From the IMG/VR virus record IMGVR_UViG_3300037584_000734, positions 1-20,354 of that record: a stretch of 20,354 nt of DNA, one strand, 5' to 3'. This DNA comes from a virus. Shown one piece after another: positions 9,475 to 17,734 of this stretch; position 1 is the first letter of the stretch, and each line of letters begins with the position of its first letter. The position numbers and the translations under genes are program-made. Below the pieces are notes generated by a model. The model was given only the letters and a program-made list of their open reading frames with translations, had not been told where the DNA came from and did not search any database.

Positions 9475-11616
9475 ATGGCTATAACAAGATCACAACAAGC
9501 TAGACAACTTTATAAAAACGGTAGACGTGTAGGTTTATTTGGAGGAATGTCACCAGGTGCTTTTGGTCAAGCAACAGGAGGTGGTTTTTCTGATAGAGAA
9601 AGAGGCGGTAATAGAGACAATGAAGGTGAAGGTCCTAATAGACAACAAAAAACACCAAAGAAAAAACCTAAAAAAACTGATAAAAATACAGTAAATAAAA
9701 AAAATTTTTTAGAAGATATTTTTATAAATAGTATGTACGGAAAACTTGCAGACGCTATTAGTAATAGCGGTATTGCTTATAATTTAAATGCAAAACAAAG
9801 AGAAAATTATTTAAAAGGATTAAAAGAAAAAGATCCGGATGCTTATAATGAAGTAATGCAAGATCTTGGAAGTCTAGGTTATGCTACTAACGTTGGTCCA
9901 CTAGATTCTAGAATGGGTTTAGATATTGATTTTACAAATTTAAATACAGGAAAAAATGAATTAGGTGAACCTCAAGCAAAAGAAATTTTGGGAAAAGGTT
10001 ATCAAAGTTATTTAGATGAAATAACTAACAGATTTATTCCAGTCGATGGACCTGGTTCTTATTCTGCAGATTCTAATATTTATATACCACCAGCTATAGA
10101 AGAAGAAGAAAAAGAAGAAGAAGAAGAAGACGTTCCTATAGCTTATAGATTTATGGCCGATGGTGGTAGAGCTGCTTTTCAAGAAGGCGGAATATTTTCA
10201 AGAATAGATGAATTAGGAAACGATATATCTTCTGCTGAACAAGAATTAACTTCTATTAATCAAAGATTAGACACAGCACAATCTTCTTTAGGTCAACCTA
10301 GTGGTGGAGGAGGAATTATGGATAGTTCTATTGTTCCTGATGCACCTGCTGTAGAGGCTACACCTTTTCCTGCAGTTACACCCGATGCACCTATTGCTGA
10401 TAATATTTCTGTAAATCCTGTTGGCTCTCCTCAAAACACGTCTCCTATCAAAACTGTAAACCCTGTAGTCGGAGGAGGAAGAGTTCCTGGAGGACCTGAA
10501 AATCCAAACATTGATATAGGTACAATAAGTATCCCTGGTCCAATTTCTGGTCCAAGACCTGCAGTTGATTTACCTGGAGGAATGCCGTCAAAACCTATCA
10601 TGAGTAATCAGGTGCTGCCTATGATTAATCAAGCAACACTTCCTCCTTTACAAGGTGGTGGTCCAAGAATTCCAAGACTTCCTCCTAACGTTAACACAGG
10701 TATATCAAACCTAGGCACCTATCTTCCATTGCAAACTGCTCAACAAGCAGGTAGTCTTGTTGGTTATGGTAAACCAGCTGATCCTAGAATGGGAGGAGTA
10801 CAGGTTGCTGGAAACCCTCTTCAAGAAATGATGAGAGGTAGTTTTGCTGATGGTGGAATGCCTGAATATCAAGGTGGGATCATGGACCTTGAATCAGGAA
10901 GACAACAATATTTTTTAGGTAAGTTGGTTAAGAAAGCAACTAGAGCTGTTAAGAAAGTTGTTAAATCTCCATTTGGTAAAGCTCTTTTACTTGGTGGATT
11001 AACATTTGGAGTTCCTGGAGTAAGATCAGGTTTTTTTAATAAAGGACTTATGGGAACTAAATCTGGAATAGGTTTTAAAAATTTTTTAGCTAATAAAGTA
11101 TTAGGTGAAGGAACTAACCAAATATCAGGTGGTTTATTATCTAAATTAAAAAGTCCGCTTGGTTATATAACAGGAGCATCTTTATTAGCGGGATTGACTG
11201 CACCTAAAAGCACCTATGATGCAGAGGAAGAAGATGATTTTCGTTTAGAGATACCAGAAGAACAATATAGATTTTATGCAGAGGGTGGAGAAGTAGAACC
11301 AGTAGCTAAAAAAACTATGCCTTTATTAGACATGGATGGCAAAGAAATGGATTTTAGGGCTGAAGGTGGTTTTGTTCCTATAGGTAGAATGGAAAAAGCA
11401 GATGATGTTCCTGCAAGATTATCAAAAAATGAGTTTGTATTTACCGCAGATGCTGTTAGAAATGCAGGAGATGGAAATATAGACAAGGGCGCAGAAGTCA
11501 TGTATAACATGATGAAAAACCTTGAAGCCGGAGGTGAAGTATCTGATGAATCGCAAGGCTTAGATGGCGCTAAAAGAATGTTTCAAACATCACAAAGACT
11601 AGAGGAAGTATTATAA
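9475..11616 (+). CDS. Large modular virion-associated protein with ADGG/AEGG motifs, 713 aa
   Basis: The layout, by residue, is: a basic, Gly-rich N-terminus (1-75; KKKPKK at 62-67), a helical region (76-190), a poly-Glu run (209-219), a long Pro/Gly-rich low-complexity linker (about 275-455), a hydrophobic/basic segment (LGKLVKKATRAVKKVVKSPF 481-500, GKALLLGGLTFGVPG 501-515), and a C-terminal domain with GGFVPIGRMEKADDVPARLS (631-650), then KNEFVFTADAVRNAG and KGAEVMYNMMKNLEAGGE. I recall that C-terminal module from structural proteins of marine phages. ADGG or AEGG occurs at 228, 458, 602 and 629. No SD is obvious before the ATG at 9475. A role as an internal or ejection-associated protein fits the amphipathic segment and its neighbours but is inference. 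Confidence 0.65.
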   Translation: MAITRSQQARQLYKNGRRVGLFGGMSPGAFGQATGGGFSDRERGGNRDNEGEGPNRQQKTPKKKPKKTDKNTVNKKNFLEDIFINSMYGKLADAISNSGIAYNLNAKQRENYLKGLKEKDPDAYNEVMQDLGSLGYATNVGPLDSRMGLDIDFTNLNTGKNELGEPQAKEILGKGYQSYLDEITNRFIPVDGPGSYSADSNIYIPPAIEEEEKEEEEEDVPIAYRFMADGGRAAFQEGGIFSRIDELGNDISSAEQELTSINQRLDTAQSSLGQPSGGGGIMDSSIVPDAPAVEATPFPAVTPDAPIADNISVNPVGSPQNTSPIKTVNPVVGGGRVPGGPENPNIDIGTISIPGPISGPRPAVDLPGGMPSKPIMSNQVLPMINQATLPPLQGGGPRIPRLPPNVNTGISNLGTYLPLQTAQQAGSLVGYGKPADPRMGGVQVAGNPLQEMMRGSFADGGMPEYQGGIMDLESGRQQYFLGKLVKKATRAVKKVVKSPFGKALLLGGLTFGVPGVRSGFFNKGLMGTKSGIGFKNFLANKVLGEGTNQISGGLLSKLKSPLGYITGASLLAGLTAPKSTYDAEEEDDFRLEIPEEQYRFYAEGGEVEPVAKKTMPLLDMDGKEMDFRAEGGFVPIGRMEKADDVPARLSKNEFVFTADAVRNAGDGNIDKGAEVMYNMMKNLEAGGEVSDESQGLDGAKRMFQTSQRLEEVL
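10098..10131 (+). repeat. GAA-rich purine run encoding poly-Glu
   Basis: A nearly uninterrupted GAA/AAA trinucleotide tract encodes E-E-E-E-K-E-E-E-E-E-D in the 713-aa protein. As a trinucleotide repeat it can change length by slippage without breaking the frame. It separates a folded-looking N-terminal part from a low-complexity linker. Confidence 0.7.
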
Positions 11617-12521
11617 TGGCTACAACAACAACAGTTTCAAAACCAGCACCTTTTGTAGAAGATTTAGGTAAAAATTTAGCACAACAAGTAATAAGCCAAA
11701 CAGGTGTTCCTATTGTAGGATCTGGAGCAGGTACTCTTACACAACAAGCAGGTGAAACAAAAGAACAATTTGAAGCTAGACAAAAAGCTGCTCAACAATT
11801 TGACGTTAGAAAAGATAGTTTAGCAGGACTTGCACCAGGTGTTGCTGGTCAAGATGCATTACAACAACAAGCACAAGCTTTAGCACAACAAGGAATAGGT
11901 TCTTATCAACCTTTTTTACAATCAGCACAAGCTGCTACGGGTCCACAAGCTTTTCAACAATACATGTCACCTTATCAATCACAAGTTATTGATACTACAT
12001 TAAAAGAATTTGACAGGAACCAGCAAATGCAAGAACAAAAAATTAGAGATCAAGCAGTTGCTTCAGGAGCTTTTGGTGGAGGTAGAGAAGGTGTTCAATT
12101 AGCAGAGTTTGGTTCAGGAATGGCTAGAGAAAGAGCTGGACTACAAGCAAATTTACAACAACAAGGTTTTGAAGCTGCACAAAAAGCAGCGCAACAACAG
12201 TTTATTAATCAAAAAGGTTTAGCTTCACTAGTGCCAGGACTACAAGGACAAGATGTTTCGACATTAGGAAAACTAGGTGCAATTAATCAAGCTCAAAAAC
12301 AAGCAGAAATGGATGCTGAAAGACAAGCAACAACAATGGCAGCTTATCAACCACAAGAACAAGTTGATAGATATGCAAACATAGTAACTGGAATTATGGG
12401 TGGATACCAGGGAGGATCACAATCAACTAATGTACCTAACCCATCACCAATGCAAACCGCTTTGGGTGCAGGAGCAACTCTTGCAGGTATATATGGTGGT
12501 TTAGGTGGAAAATTATTTTAA
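11616..12521 (+). CDS. Gln/Ala-rich probable internal virion (DNA-ejection) protein, 301 aa
   Basis: A soluble, strongly helical protein, exceptionally rich in Gln and Ala. The central block (QSQVIDTTLKEFDRNQQMQE, then QKIRDQAVASGAFGGGREGV, around residues 125-165) and the following AGLQANLQQQGFEAAQKAAQ are characteristic of a family I have seen in podovirus and marine-phage structural clusters, thought to be internal or ejection proteins. The protein ends in a small Gly/Ala hydrophobic stretch (ALGAGATLAGIYGGLGGKLF, 282-301) that could insert in a membrane. Similar size and composition to T7 gp14 / P22 gp7-type ejection proteins is suggestive but not homology. It starts within the previous stop (TAATG). 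Confidence 0.6.
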   Translation: MATTTTVSKPAPFVEDLGKNLAQQVISQTGVPIVGSGAGTLTQQAGETKEQFEARQKAAQQFDVRKDSLAGLAPGVAGQDALQQQAQALAQQGIGSYQPFLQSAQAATGPQAFQQYMSPYQSQVIDTTLKEFDRNQQMQEQKIRDQAVASGAFGGGREGVQLAEFGSGMARERAGLQANLQQQGFEAAQKAAQQQFINQKGLASLVPGLQGQDVSTLGKLGAINQAQKQAEMDAERQATTMAAYQPQEQVDRYANIVTGIMGGYQGGSQSTNVPNPSPMQTALGAGATLAGIYGGLGGKLF

Positions 12522-12523
12522 TA

Positions 12524-13534
12524 ATGAATAGAACATTAAAAAGACCAATGTTTAGAATGGGTGGTTCTACAGGAACTGGTATTACATCAGGACTAGATCA
12601 ACCTAGAAAACAATATAATCAAGGATCAAATCCTTATGAAAAAGCATTAGCAACTGCTAAAAGGGGAGCTGCTGATTTAGAAAAATTTAGAGGAGAACAA
12701 GGTTTATTCAGTCCTATGGCTGGTCCAGGTTTTTTAACTTCATTTGGTTTGGATTTAATGTCTAGACCTTCAAGAGGAAGTGGATTAAGTGGCTTTTTAG
12801 CTACTGCAGCAGACTCTGCAAAAGAACCTTTCAAAACTTTTCAAGCAGCAAAGATGGCTGAAAGAAATAGAAAAGCAACTACCGCCGAAGATTTATTTAC
12901 AAGTGCATTAGCTTCTGAATATGGATTAGAAGAAGCAAGAATAGATGCAGATGCTAAAAAAACTAGTAGCACAGAATTTGAAAAAGAGAGAAGAGTTCAG
13001 ATGTTAAATTCTCTTTACGATAATAAAATTCTTAAAAAAGAAGTTGAATTAGAAAATGCTTCTCCTGAATCAAGAGAAAAAATTTTAGCTAGTATAGAAA
13101 CTTTAAAAGAGGAAAAAGAAGATTATGCAAAATCTATTCTCGCAGGAACTATGACACAAGATGATTTTGTAAAAGATATTATTATAGCTGGTGTTAGAAA
13201 TGATGTATTTGATCCTGTTAAAGTTGCAGAAAAATATCCTGAGTTAGCTGGATTACTATATGAGGGACTGGCAGATGGTGGTAGAGCTGGTTATAATATA
13301 GGTGGTCAAGCAATGATGCCTGAAGTAGCAAATGCAAAAGAAAAAGAAGTCGAAGATTTATCTTACAATGAATTAAGATCAAGACTACCACAATCTATAA
13401 GCAATGATGTAGTGCAAGTAATATCACAAAGTAAACAAGCTTTATTAGATTTTGCAAACATCAGAGATCAACAAGATGTTGAAGAGTTTAACCAAAGATA
13501 CAACGTAAGTTTGAATATAGCACAAGAGGGTTAA
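12524..13534 (+). CDS. Probable internal virion protein with ADGGRA motif, 336 aa
   Basis: The start MNRTLKRPMFRMGGSTGTGI is a recurring N-terminus of marine-phage late proteins. A Gly-rich region with FLTSFGLDLMSRPSRGSGLS (70-89) is followed by a long charged helix/coiled-coil region (about 115-215). Residues 249-261 (LADGGRAGYNIGG) closely match residues 227-239 of the 713-aa protein (MADGGRAAFQEGG), and a C-terminal helical domain follows. The ATG lies 2 bp after the previous stop and the gene abuts the 1399-aa gene with no spacer. No enzyme motif is visible. A structural or ejection role is inferred from context. Confidence 0.6.
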   Translation: MNRTLKRPMFRMGGSTGTGITSGLDQPRKQYNQGSNPYEKALATAKRGAADLEKFRGEQGLFSPMAGPGFLTSFGLDLMSRPSRGSGLSGFLATAADSAKEPFKTFQAAKMAERNRKATTAEDLFTSALASEYGLEEARIDADAKKTSSTEFEKERRVQMLNSLYDNKILKKEVELENASPESREKILASIETLKEEKEDYAKSILAGTMTQDDFVKDIIIAGVRNDVFDPVKVAEKYPELAGLLYEGLADGGRAGYNIGGQAMMPEVANAKEKEVEDLSYNELRSRLPQSISNDVVQVISQSKQALLDFANIRDQQDVEEFNQRYNVSLNIAQEG

Positions 13535-16500
13535 ATGGCTGACCCTTTTAAACAAAAAGAAAAAAGCATAGAACGTGCTGAAACCATAACAGGACTTGCA
13601 CGAGAAGTTTTAAATAAAAAGAAAAAACCTGTAAAGTTTACCTGGAAAGGTTTTGCTAATCTTACATCTAGTTTTTTAGAAACAAATCCTTTTGATAAAT
13701 TAAAATTAGATAGAATAAAAGAATTACAAGAAGGTTCTGAAGCAAAAGAAAAAGACTATATAGATTTTTTTGAAGATATAGAAAAAAGTTTATATGGTGG
13801 TGTTCAGGATTTAGGTTATGCTGTAGGTGATTTGCTAACATCGGGAATCGATGCTACAATAGGAACAGATCTTTCAGAAAAATTAGATGAAGTTTATGAA
13901 GAAAATAAAATAAAAGATCCTGAAACACTTACAGGAGAAGTCACTAAAGTTCTTACACAGTATGGTATACCAGGAGGTGCCTCATTTAAAGTATTAAACA
14001 GAGTTAAAATACTTCAACGAAATAGAAAATTAGCAGACACAGGAACTAAATTACAAAAAGCATCACAAATTGCAAAAAGAGCTGGATATATGTCTAGTGC
14101 TCTTGCTGCAACAGATTTTATTGCATCTACTCCCGACAAAGAAACTTTGTTTGTAAAGGAAGAAAAGACAGAAGGATTGACTGGTAGAGATTTAGCATTA
14201 GCTAAATTAAGAAACAGAGTAAGGTTTGGTACAGAGGGTGCATTAATTGGTGGTGGTTTTTCTTTAGTTGGTAAACCAGTAGCTCTTGGTTTTAAATATG
14301 GTATCTTTAAACCTGGTGCAAAGGTAGCGGGTATTGGATTAAAAGCAGTGGACAAAGCTGTTGTATCACCACTCACGTACCTTGGATCAAAAGCAATACC
14401 AGCTCCTGCAGGTAAAGCTATAAGAGATGCAAGTGCATTTGTAGTAAACAAAGCATTAGCACCAATTAGATTAGGTACAGGTGCAAAACAATTACCTAAG
14501 TTCCAAGAATGGAAATTATTTAGTAGAGATAGTAAAGACCCATTAGAAAGAAGATTAAAAAAACTATCTGGATTTTTAGAAAAATTTACATCGCAAGGAA
14601 AACTAACGGGACTTGGTTATCAAATATCATCAGAAGCTAGAAGAGAAATAAAAGCACAATCAAGAACTATAGAAAAATATCTAGAGTCTATTGAAAAGAA
14701 AGCATACAATCTTGCAAAAGATTTTGAAACAAAACACAATACAAAAACTACATCAGAAGCTAGTCAAGATTATTATTTAGATCAAATACTTGGTTATTTA
14801 AAAGGTAATGTTAAATTAAATAGTGTTGCACCTGATCTACAGGGAAGTGCAAAAAGTTTAAGTAAAGAATTATTACAAATAAAAGAAAAGTTTGCAGGTT
14901 TATTACCTGAAGGTGATCTTAAAAACTTTATGTTAAATAATTTAAAAACATATATGAGACAATCTTTTAGTGTTTTTACAAATCCTAACTATCAACCCGA
15001 TAAAAAAATATATGATGGTGCAGTTAATTGGGTAGCTAAAAATGTTGTTCAAGCAAATAAAGATTTAAGACAAGAAGCTTTAAAAACATTAAAGACCGGA
15101 AAGATGACAGATAAACAAGCTATTGATGAAATGGCTGAATCACTTACAGATAAAATATTAAAAGCTGGTAAACAAGACGGAGCAGATCCATTACAAGTAT
15201 TGAGAAATGTAGCAGGGAAAGATTTTTTAAGAACAGATAAAATTATACGAACAGGTGAAGAGCTACCTGATGCAATAAAAAAATTATTGGGACAAGAAGA
15301 TAATTTAAAAGCTTCTGTGTTAACTACTACATCACACGCAATAACTCACGCTGTAAATAAACAATCTTTTGATAAACTAGCTAGAATAGGTTTAGATGAA
15401 GGTTGGCTGTTTAGAAGTAAAGCAGCGGCGGAAGCTAAAAGATATTTAGATGCAGAAAAAATAGGTGATGTAAAAAGTTTAGGTTTACTTAAAAGTGAAA
15501 TGTCTAAATTATATGCAACACCAGAACTTACAGAAGTATTCAGACAAACAAGAAAAGGTTTAGATACTTGGATACAAAACGGTGTGTATAGAAACATATT
15601 ACAGTTAAAAGTAGCTGCACAGTATGGAAAAACTGTACTATCACCCGTTACACAAGTACGTAACGTTTCATCAGCAAGTTTATTTCCATTAGCTAATGGA
15701 CATATTGGAGGTCGAGCTTCCGTATCAGAGTCACTAAAAATGACAATTGATGATATATTTGGTGCAGGTAAAGTTATAGACGAAGATACATTTATTAAAA
15801 ATATTGAAAACAAAATTAGACTTGGAGTGTTAGATGAAAATATTGTAGCTTCAGAACTTAAAGCGGTGCTACAAGAAATAAAAAATACAAAAGGTCTAAC
15901 AAGTTTAGATAAAATTATAAGAGCTTTATCGGACGGTAAGTTTGCATTTGATGATACAGTTCTTAAAAAAACTGGAGAAACAATAAGTAAATTTGGTAAA
16001 GGTGCTGCTAGAGTATATGCAGGAGGAGATAACATGTGGAAATGGTATGGCCATGAATATGTTAAATCACAATTACGTGGCATGTATAGTAAAACAAGTG
16101 ATATTGCTAAATGGTATGATGAAATAGTTGGTAGAAAGTTTGATCCTAAAAATACATTTACAGGTAAATTAAAAACATTTGATGAAGCTGTAGATGAAGC
16201 AGCTGCATGGTATATTAGAAATACTTATCCAACATATAGTAAAGTTCCTGAGTTTGTTCAATCAATTAGAAAACTACCTTTTGGTAACTTTGTATCTTTC
16301 CCAGCAGAAATGATAAGAACCACATATAATATTATAGAGTTAGGTGCTAAAGAAGCAACATCAGCTAATCCTAAATTAAGACAGATGGGTCTTAGAAGAT
16401 TGTTAGGAGCTTATGTAACATTATCTGGAACAGGACTTGCTGTTGGTAAAACAGCACAAGCATTAACTGGTGTAACAATGGATGAAATAGAGGCGTATAA

Positions 16501-17734
16501 AAGAAGTTTATCTGCACCATGGGAAAAAAGAGCACAAATTATACCTATAAATAAATGGAAACAAGGTGTTGGTAAAGCAATTAACTTTTCATATTTTAGT
16601 CCATACGATGTAGTTACAAAACCAGTTGAGGCTATATTTAAACAATGGCAAGAAGGAACTGTTAAAGACCAAGATGTAGGAGACAAACTACTTGCTCAAG
16701 CTCTTGATCAAGATGGACCTTTAAGAACATTACTAGATCCTTTTATTACACAATCAATTGCACTTGAAAGATTTACTGATGTGCTACCGGCAGAAGTAGG
16801 ACTTGGTAACAGAGGTGGTTTAACTAAAACTGGTGCAAAAGTATATTCACAAACAGACTCAACTGGTGATAAAATTTCAAAAAGTTTTATACATATATTA
16901 AAAGGTATAGAACCAGGAGCAATTACTACTGGTAAAAAATTAGTTCAAGGATTACAAGGTGATGTAAAAAAAGGTGGCCAACCTGTATCGCTACAAGATG
17001 AAATACTTGCGTTATTATCAGGTATTAGAATTATCAATATAGATGCACCACGGACCATGCAATATAAAATTACAGAATATAATAACAACAAAAGATCTGT
17101 TACAGCTACAGAAAAATTTTTTAGTTTAGAAAATTTTAGACAAAGAGGACCAGAAGTTTTAGCAGAAGAATTTAAAAATATTCAGGAAGAAAATTTAAAA
17201 GTAAATAGAAATTTTTATCAAGTGTTAAAAGATGCTGAAACAATGGGAGTCCCTAGACAAAAATTAAAAAAAATAATGAAAGAAAGAGGTATCTCTACTA
17301 AAAATTCAAATAAACTTTTAAGAGGAGTAAACATACCCTATTCAGGATACGATGGTCGTATGAAAAAAAGAGTTATTGATGCTAGAAAATTATCTAAAGA
17401 ATTAAATGAAGGATCTATTAATAGAAACTATTTTTATCCTAGAAGATTATTTAAACAAATAGAAAGAGAGTATAAAAGAAAAAGTATTAAACCTATAGAA
17501 CTAGGTCCAGGTCTTATTGAAAGAGGTATAAAAGGTGCGCAAGATTTATTGGGTAACATGCCTCAAAAACAACCTGAAGCAGTTCAACAAGCTAATATAC
17601 AAACACCACCACTACCAAATACACCTATGCCTACAATAAAAACAGCACAAAATATTAATCCTCAAACAGGGTTGACACAAACAGAGAGTGCATTACTATC
17701 ACCTTCAGAACAAATTATTGCGAGGCGAACATAA
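13535..17734 (+). CDS. Giant internal virion / ejection-type protein, 1399 aa
   Basis: The longest gene here. AGAGGG just ahead of the ATG gives a good SD, immediately after the previous stop. The N-terminal 400 residues are charged helices with Gly/Ala hydrophobic stretches (GTEGALIGGGFSLVGKPVAL, about 230-250). The middle is helical (390-850). A conserved-looking block around 832-985 includes DNMWKWYGHEYVKSQL, RKLPFGNFVSFPAEMIRTTY and LGAYVTLSGTGLAVGKTAQA. The final 55 residues are Pro/Gln-rich. No lytic transglycosylase, peptidase or ATPase motif is recognised. Size, position after other internal-type proteins and location before the lysis genes match the large ejection protein of podoviruses (T7 gp16 role). 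That comparison is functional, not sequence-based. The stop overlaps an ATG (TAATG) of a tiny frame. Confidence 0.65.
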   Translation: MADPFKQKEKSIERAETITGLAREVLNKKKKPVKFTWKGFANLTSSFLETNPFDKLKLDRIKELQEGSEAKEKDYIDFFEDIEKSLYGGVQDLGYAVGDLLTSGIDATIGTDLSEKLDEVYEENKIKDPETLTGEVTKVLTQYGIPGGASFKVLNRVKILQRNRKLADTGTKLQKASQIAKRAGYMSSALAATDFIASTPDKETLFVKEEKTEGLTGRDLALAKLRNRVRFGTEGALIGGGFSLVGKPVALGFKYGIFKPGAKVAGIGLKAVDKAVVSPLTYLGSKAIPAPAGKAIRDASAFVVNKALAPIRLGTGAKQLPKFQEWKLFSRDSKDPLERRLKKLSGFLEKFTSQGKLTGLGYQISSEARREIKAQSRTIEKYLESIEKKAYNLAKDFETKHNTKTTSEASQDYYLDQILGYLKGNVKLNSVAPDLQGSAKSLSKELLQIKEKFAGLLPEGDLKNFMLNNLKTYMRQSFSVFTNPNYQPDKKIYDGAVNWVAKNVVQANKDLRQEALKTLKTGKMTDKQAIDEMAESLTDKILKAGKQDGADPLQVLRNVAGKDFLRTDKIIRTGEELPDAIKKLLGQEDNLKASVLTTTSHAITHAVNKQSFDKLARIGLDEGWLFRSKAAAEAKRYLDAEKIGDVKSLGLLKSEMSKLYATPELTEVFRQTRKGLDTWIQNGVYRNILQLKVAAQYGKTVLSPVTQVRNVSSASLFPLANGHIGGRASVSESLKMTIDDIFGAGKVIDEDTFIKNIENKIRLGVLDENIVASELKAVLQEIKNTKGLTSLDKIIRALSDGKFAFDDTVLKKTGETISKFGKGAARVYAGGDNMWKWYGHEYVKSQLRGMYSKTSDIAKWYDEIVGRKFDPKNTFTGKLKTFDEAVDEAAAWYIRNTYPTYSKVPEFVQSIRKLPFGNFVSFPAEMIRTTYNIIELGAKEATSANPKLRQMGLRRLLGAYVTLSGTGLAVGKTAQALTGVTMDEIEAYKRSLSAPWEKRAQIIPINKWKQGVGKAINFSYFSPYDVVTKPVEAIFKQWQEGTVKDQDVGDKLLAQALDQDGPLRTLLDPFITQSIALERFTDVLPAEVGLGNRGGLTKTGAKVYSQTDSTGDKISKSFIHILKGIEPGAITTGKKLVQGLQGDVKKGGQPVSLQDEILALLSGIRIINIDAPRTMQYKITEYNNNKRSVTATEKFFSLENFRQRGPEVLAEEFKNIQEENLKVNRNFYQVLKDAETMGVPRQKLKKIMKERGISTKNSNKLLRGVNIPYSGYDGRMKKRVIDARKLSKELNEGSINRNYFYPRRLFKQIEREYKRKSIKPIELGPGLIERGIKGAQDLLGNMPQKQPEAVQQANIQTPPLPNTPMPTIKTAQNINPQTGLTQTESALLSPSEQIIARRT

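Follow-up and report, generated by a model that had tools for sequence, protein, structure and literature searches.

A 13-residue stretch shared by two proteins of this virus is one copy of a larger, lineage-specific short linear motif, and the phenomenon is bigger than first noted. The motif has the consensus [LKAYM]-A-[DE]-G-G-R-[IAV]-G-[YFL]-x-x-G; it is restricted to one lineage of phages and to two loci of their genomes, is conserved at the protein level, and lies in linkers and at module edges. The reading that we favour, with somewhat less than even confidence, is that the motif may be a tag by which proteins are docked or packaged for loading into the virion and subsequent ejection.

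The window, i.e., the whole 20,354-nucleotide stretch that was analysed (positions 1 to 20,354 of IMG/VR record IMGVR_UViG_3300037584_000734), contains the following features, all on the plus strand:

9475..11616, plus strand: 713-aa protein in the gp82 slot of HTVC027P, mostly disordered, C-terminal region tape-measure-like
9514..9546, plus strand: degenerate N-terminal motif copy KNGRRVGLFGG, residues 14-24 of the 713-aa protein
10153-10191, plus strand: MADGGRAAFQEGG, a copy of the motif at residues 227-239 in the 713-aa ORF
10843..10878, plus strand: half-motif FADGGMPEYQGG, residues 457-468 of the 713-aa protein, opening the conserved island GGIMDLESGRQxYxLGKLVKK
11275..11295, plus strand: half-motif YAEGGEV, residues 601-607 of the 713-aa protein, opening a conserved island
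11356..11544, plus strand: RAEGGFVPIG...DDVPARLSKNEFVFTADAV, residues 628-690 of the 713-aa protein, a tape-measure-like C-terminal element
11616..12521, plus strand: 301-aa homologue of a DNA ejection protein in the gp83 slot (PHROG 4287), without the motif
12524..13534, plus strand: 336-aa protein in the gp84 slot
12542..12595, plus strand: conserved N-terminal peptide RPMFRMGGSTGTGITSGL, residues 7-24 of the 336-aa protein, predicted disordered
13268-13306, plus strand: LADGGRAGYNIGG, a copy of the motif at residues 249-261 in the 336-aa ORF, in a linker with pLDDT <50
13328..13531, plus strand: C-terminal helical domain, residues 269-336 of the 336-aa protein, with the motif always ahead of it in homologues
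13535..17734, plus strand: 1399-aa protein without the motif, in the gp85 slot, for which the HTVC027P annotation reads 'putative structural protein'

Phages of the HTVC023P type are widespread and very common in the ocean, and the majority of their genes are unannotated. Judged by its genes, the window comes from a pelagiphage of the HTVC023P/HTVC027P type: its gene order is that of gp75-gp87 of HTVC027P (tail accessory protein, glycosyltransferases, gp82 of 713 aa, gp83 of 301 aa, gp84 of 336 aa, gp85 of 1399 aa, helicase), and gene families are shared around the ejection operon. Such phages have been described as podoviruses (PMC9599517). The gp82-gp85 operon is predicted to encode the ejection proteins, and from gene position the 713-aa and 336-aa products would be virion components that leave the particle together with the DNA.

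The preliminary description had reported the 13-residue match between these two proteins. We confirmed it, with its outer coordinates corrected by 3 bases. The 16-base identity at 10159-10174 and 13274-13289 (GATGGTGGTAGAGCTG) was likewise found as described, as were the FADGG (457), YAEGG (601), and RAEGG (628) sites of the 713-aa protein. The AxGG part of the proposed pattern, hydrophobic-x-A-[DE]-G-G, does belong to the motif; the pattern as a whole proved too short, since the Arg, the following Gly, the Tyr/Phe, and the final Gly are also part of the motif, and its hydrophobic position is weak. Enumeration of the motif across proteins, suggested at the same time, revealed strong enrichment. 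It covered 257 sequences, i.e., the window and 256 loci, whose translations were thinned to open frames that do not overlap, with frames called by a simple longest-frame rule. GGR.G[FYL] occurred 364 times compared to 4.8 in within-protein shuffles and A[DE]GGR.G[FYL] 238 times compared to 0.2, both counts being inflated by motif-seeded loci. Among 6-mers common to gene clusters, EGGRIG, AEGGRI, and GGRIGY ranked first, with seeded loci contributing, and single proteins carried up to six copies.

Leave-one-out frequencies from loci that were not motif-seeded define which positions matter. Both Gly residues and the Arg were present in 61/61 copies each, the final Gly in 97%, the Ala in 86%, an aromatic residue or Leu in 85%, the Gly ahead of the aromatic in 76%, and Asp or Glu in 65%. 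On this basis, the core reads A-x-G-G-R-[IAV]-G-[YFL]-x-x-G, with a preference for an acidic residue at the first x. A sibling pattern, G[KRSTN]RPGY, was observed in 34 proteins from five clusters, all of them motif-bearing and including the 713-aa family. A tblastn search with the consensus peptide, a query too short for the purpose, gave no match. Among 5.4 million open papers, none on phages was found to print the hexapeptide in any of six forms.

We then compared the gene families that carry the full motif. In the 101 loci not seeded by the motif, two of the 18 window families contained it: the 713-aa family in 55/101 members and the 336-aa family in 39/76. The remaining 16 window families had no copy in these loci; the 301-aa family contained it in 6/179 members once motif-seeded loci were included. 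HTVC027P and 023Pt_psg01 contain four further motif-bearing clusters. A 60-kb relative carries the motif in 4/93 genes, namely the gp82/gp84 pair and two genes between terminase and portal. This second locus was recovered in a separate, portal-seeded sample, where the motif was present in 22/40 complete genes directly before the portal (portal-1), 5/30 genes one position further upstream (portal-2), and 0/374 other genes. The terminase-portal genes are hypervariable, encode up to 1355 aa, and form many clusters without detected similarity. Clustering was single-linkage with the motif masked, and proteins counted as unrelated if BLAST did not connect them at E 1e-8 across 40% of the shorter sequence; remote homology could join some clusters, and counts from related contigs are not independent. 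Pfam and NCBIfam scans of large terminase-portal proteins (eight per library) returned no significant domain and no recognised effector domain, and a PDB sequence search with a 1220-aa member returned no match.

Terminal peptides were also observed at the same locus. Nearly all genes immediately downstream of the large terminase encode proteins ending in A-x-G-G-[LI]-x-x-[IM]-L-[GE]-x (e.g., L134:23368-23403; L271-L347), and a terminus of the A-x-G-G-[LI] type was present in 25/30 complete terminase+1 genes of the portal-seeded set. The terminal L-G-[VE] was rejected as part of a protein tag because these last three residues overlie the ribosome-binding site of the next gene, and only A-x-G-G-[LI] was therefore counted. 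The variable proteins encoded before the portal (L269-L347) fall into classes by their C-terminal peptide: GKYNDQIKNIKLP, DETEEFVP, or LEDMKKYTYDE.

The motif is restricted to phages of the HTVC023P type. DNA patterns for ADGGRAG[YF] and A[DE]GGRIG[YF] matched 34 and at least 120 viral loci, respectively, and among the matches listed 153/154 loci have non-motif gene families in common with the window, HTVC027P, or 023Pt_psg01. Four copies each were found in HTVC027P and in 40 kb of 023Pt_psg01; the motif is absent from the Pelagibacter phages HTVC008M (134 of 147 kb covered), HTVC010P, HTVC019P, and HTVC026P. The same patterns gave zero and two matches in the bacterial and archaeal genome set, neither of them convincingly cellular. 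One, in a 'Dictyoglomus' MAG (L258, CALHTV010000083.1), encodes a gp84 end and a gp85 homologue of the HTVC023P type and is probably a mis-binned phage fragment; the other, in Methylobacterium, lies in an open frame of 164 aa read from the minus strand of its locus and was put down to chance. No viral contig matched a version of the motif written in GC-rich codons.

A mobile coding micro-repeat that spreads at the DNA level had also been proposed, and both the 16 identical bases and the differing positions of the motif in related proteins would suit such a repeat. Codon identity at shared residues is, however, no higher within one genome than between genomes (0.504 vs 0.553), and flanking DNA identity is at background (0.311 vs 0.308). 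Of cross-genome, cross-family pairs, 3.5% share an identical run of at least 16 bases, and among residue-matched pairs the share is 20.8%; such identity is expected from the shared peptide and codon bias. We thus reject DNA copying between motif copies, a micro-repeat being extremely improbable, and the conservation is at the protein level. As a separate observation, the codon of the first motif Gly (10159-10164 and other copies) is GGT in 110/129 unseeded copies, compared to ~53% in these genes.

Structural predictions and homologue comparisons place the motif in predicted disordered linkers, often between modules. AlphaFold modelled the motif of the 336-aa protein within a stretch of pLDDT <50 that separates helical domains, and the 713-aa protein as mostly low-confidence and mostly disordered. 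A Foldseek search of the 336-aa model, a weak one (pTM 0.26), against PDB and BFVD yielded nothing at E <= 0.001, and tblastn of this protein against named phages gave no match. Within the gp84 family, the motif lies 19-49 residues before the C-terminal helical domain in 41/41 distinct complete members having that domain; the 48 members without the domain never carry it at that place, and six have it near the N-terminus. Most copies in the gp82 family are internal, with an N-terminal copy, degenerate ones included, in 35/125 proteins; many 713-aa homologues have ...QLLAKGGRIGLKGG in place of KNGRRVGLFGG. Local-homology ends in the mosaic terminase-portal proteins fall within 15 residues of the motif in 18.6% of cases vs 6.2% at random, a comparison in which pairs are not independent and motif masking may itself end some alignments. 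The most conserved part of the 336-aa family is not the motif but the N-terminal peptide RPMFRMGG...GITSGL (12542-12595), which is nevertheless predicted to be disordered; HTVC027P gp84 lacks the motif and still has a version of this peptide. A Tat-like [RK]RxF[LIMV][KGA] followed by a hydrophobic stretch was also observed within 36 residues after 9/347 motif copies, compared to 0.34 expected (L162:5666-9325, L219:4020-5339, and seven more, some of which may be homologous).

Such a setting would suit a structural joint, i.e., a flexible hinge or unfolding-tolerant linker for threading through the tail, kept for its mechanics and with no dedicated partner: the motif is Gly-rich, disordered, and located between helical domains, and its flanks are slightly more disorder-prone than the rest of the same proteins. 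We consider this unlikely, given that a plain hinge would not keep an exact R-x-G-[YF]-x-x-G across unrelated families, with the Arg and the final Gly as constant in unseeded copies as described above, and that the 301-aa and 1399-aa predicted ejection proteins of the same phage lack the motif. The invariant Arg and the aromatic residue in a Gly context, with several copies per protein, could alternatively act as a 'sticker' that contacts packaged DNA or condenses internal proteins. That role appears quite improbable: Leu is accepted at the aromatic position (18% of unseeded copies) and an acidic residue commonly precedes, a poor arrangement for DNA contact.

The position between modules would also fit a processing site. 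In this case, an unrecognised protease of the phage or the host would cleave the GG, either in maturation or once the proteins have been ejected, and free the modules. A-D/E-G-G superficially resembles T4-type and double-glycine sites, and cleavage at the nine copies directly before a Tat-like RRxFLK and hydrophobic helix would expose that helix near an N-terminus. Processing is also undergone by tape measure proteins of the lambda type, and these have the C-terminal element of the 713-aa protein in common with it. Against processing, the acidic residue at the would-be P1 position is variable, the invariant residues (GGR..G) lie on the primed side, and the motif is missing from the capsid protein and from other probable substrates. 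No Peptidase S77, S78, ClpP, or C39 was detected in full-length HTVC027P, 023Pt_psg01, or the 60-kb relative, and the same search found S77 in the control phage HTVC008M. We regard processing as rather improbable overall. The T4-type site raised in the preliminary description is likewise unlikely on the sequence evidence: T4-type substrates have Glu at P1, whereas the residue in unseeded copies is D in 52%, E in 13%, and N in 10%. By way of comparison, the SPN3US protease cleaves after A-X-E (PMC10052503). Nor do the copies fit double-glycine leaders, as they are mostly internal and no C39 was detected in the three relatives.

Of the three options first proposed, a docking tag is the best-fitting inference. 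It is favoured because the present set of proteins shares the logic of T4 internal proteins, in which dissimilar, fast-changing proteins, here from two virion gene neighbourhoods, share one short conserved signal. The motif would be a short linear recognition signal of HTVC023P-type pelagiphages, placed in disordered linkers of predicted ejected cargo, with the cargo comprising the gp82/gp84 pair encoded next to the ejection protein, as well as the products of the hypervariable terminase-portal genes. GGRxG[YF]xxG would most likely be bound by a shared virion component, e.g., the scaffold, the portal, the capsid interior, or the 1399-aa protein; virion presence, ejection, binding, and the binding partner are what we infer here. 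One conserved address could then recruit unrelated, fast-changing cargo, as the T4 capsid-targeting sequence (CTS) recruits diverse internal proteins. Several points count against a tag. The full motif is missing from around half of the portal-1 genes and from many members of the gp84 family, so that it is not obligatory for each protein, and its role would have to be filled by partial motifs or different tags. In addition, targeting tags are usually terminal and single, whereas GGRxG[YF]xxG is internal and repeated, and the terminase-portal proteins have no effector domain recognised in Pfam or NCBIfam.

Comparison with known systems shows partial likenesses. The T4 CTS is N-terminal and is removed by the prohead protease. 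T4 internal proteins are diverse and share only this conserved sequence (PMC3012670). The pelagiphage motif is similarly a short conserved signal on highly diverse proteins, with packaging predicted from gene position, but is mostly internal rather than N-terminal and occurs in up to six copies, and no such protease was found. Encapsulin cargo-loading or targeting peptides are likewise short, Gly-rich, and recruit cargo inside an HK97-fold shell (PMC8346489), and the A-x-G-G-[LI] ends of the terminase+1 genes recall them; no sequence match to SDGSLGIGSLKRS was established, and the internal pelagiphage motif has an invariant Arg. Polyvalent proteins are also large, mosaic, encoded in a virion gene context, and predicted to be injected (PMC5512222), whereas no known polyvalent domain, and none of the disparate activities combined in such proteins, was recognised in the large terminase-portal proteins scanned; the words 'linear motif' are absent from that paper (PMC5512222). 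The operon resembles T7/P22-type ejection modules in its composition, with one small ejection protein, proteins of medium size, and one of ~1400 aa, but no homology of the 713-aa or 336-aa protein was detected. Finally, AEGGFVP...DDVPARLSxNEFVFTADAV weakly matches PHROG 5448/4197 and the tape measure of phage DSL-LC04, a likeness to siphophage tape measures that is limited to the last ~70 residues of the 713-aa protein; the phage is of the HTVC023P type, described as podoviral.

A more elaborate form of the tag is possible, if doubtful: an address code in which the repeatable, position-independent GGRxG[YF]xxG and slot-specific terminal peptides, such as the A-x-G-G-[LI] ends after the terminase and the RPMFRxGG starts in gp84, together load hypervariable proteins and deliver them to SAR11 cells. 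With one and the same small set of genes marked in every genome, the motif would allow a prediction of which uncharacterised proteins enter the particle and are injected. The targets of such injection would be the most abundant marine bacteria, and the motif would offer a handle for steering cargo into phage particles.
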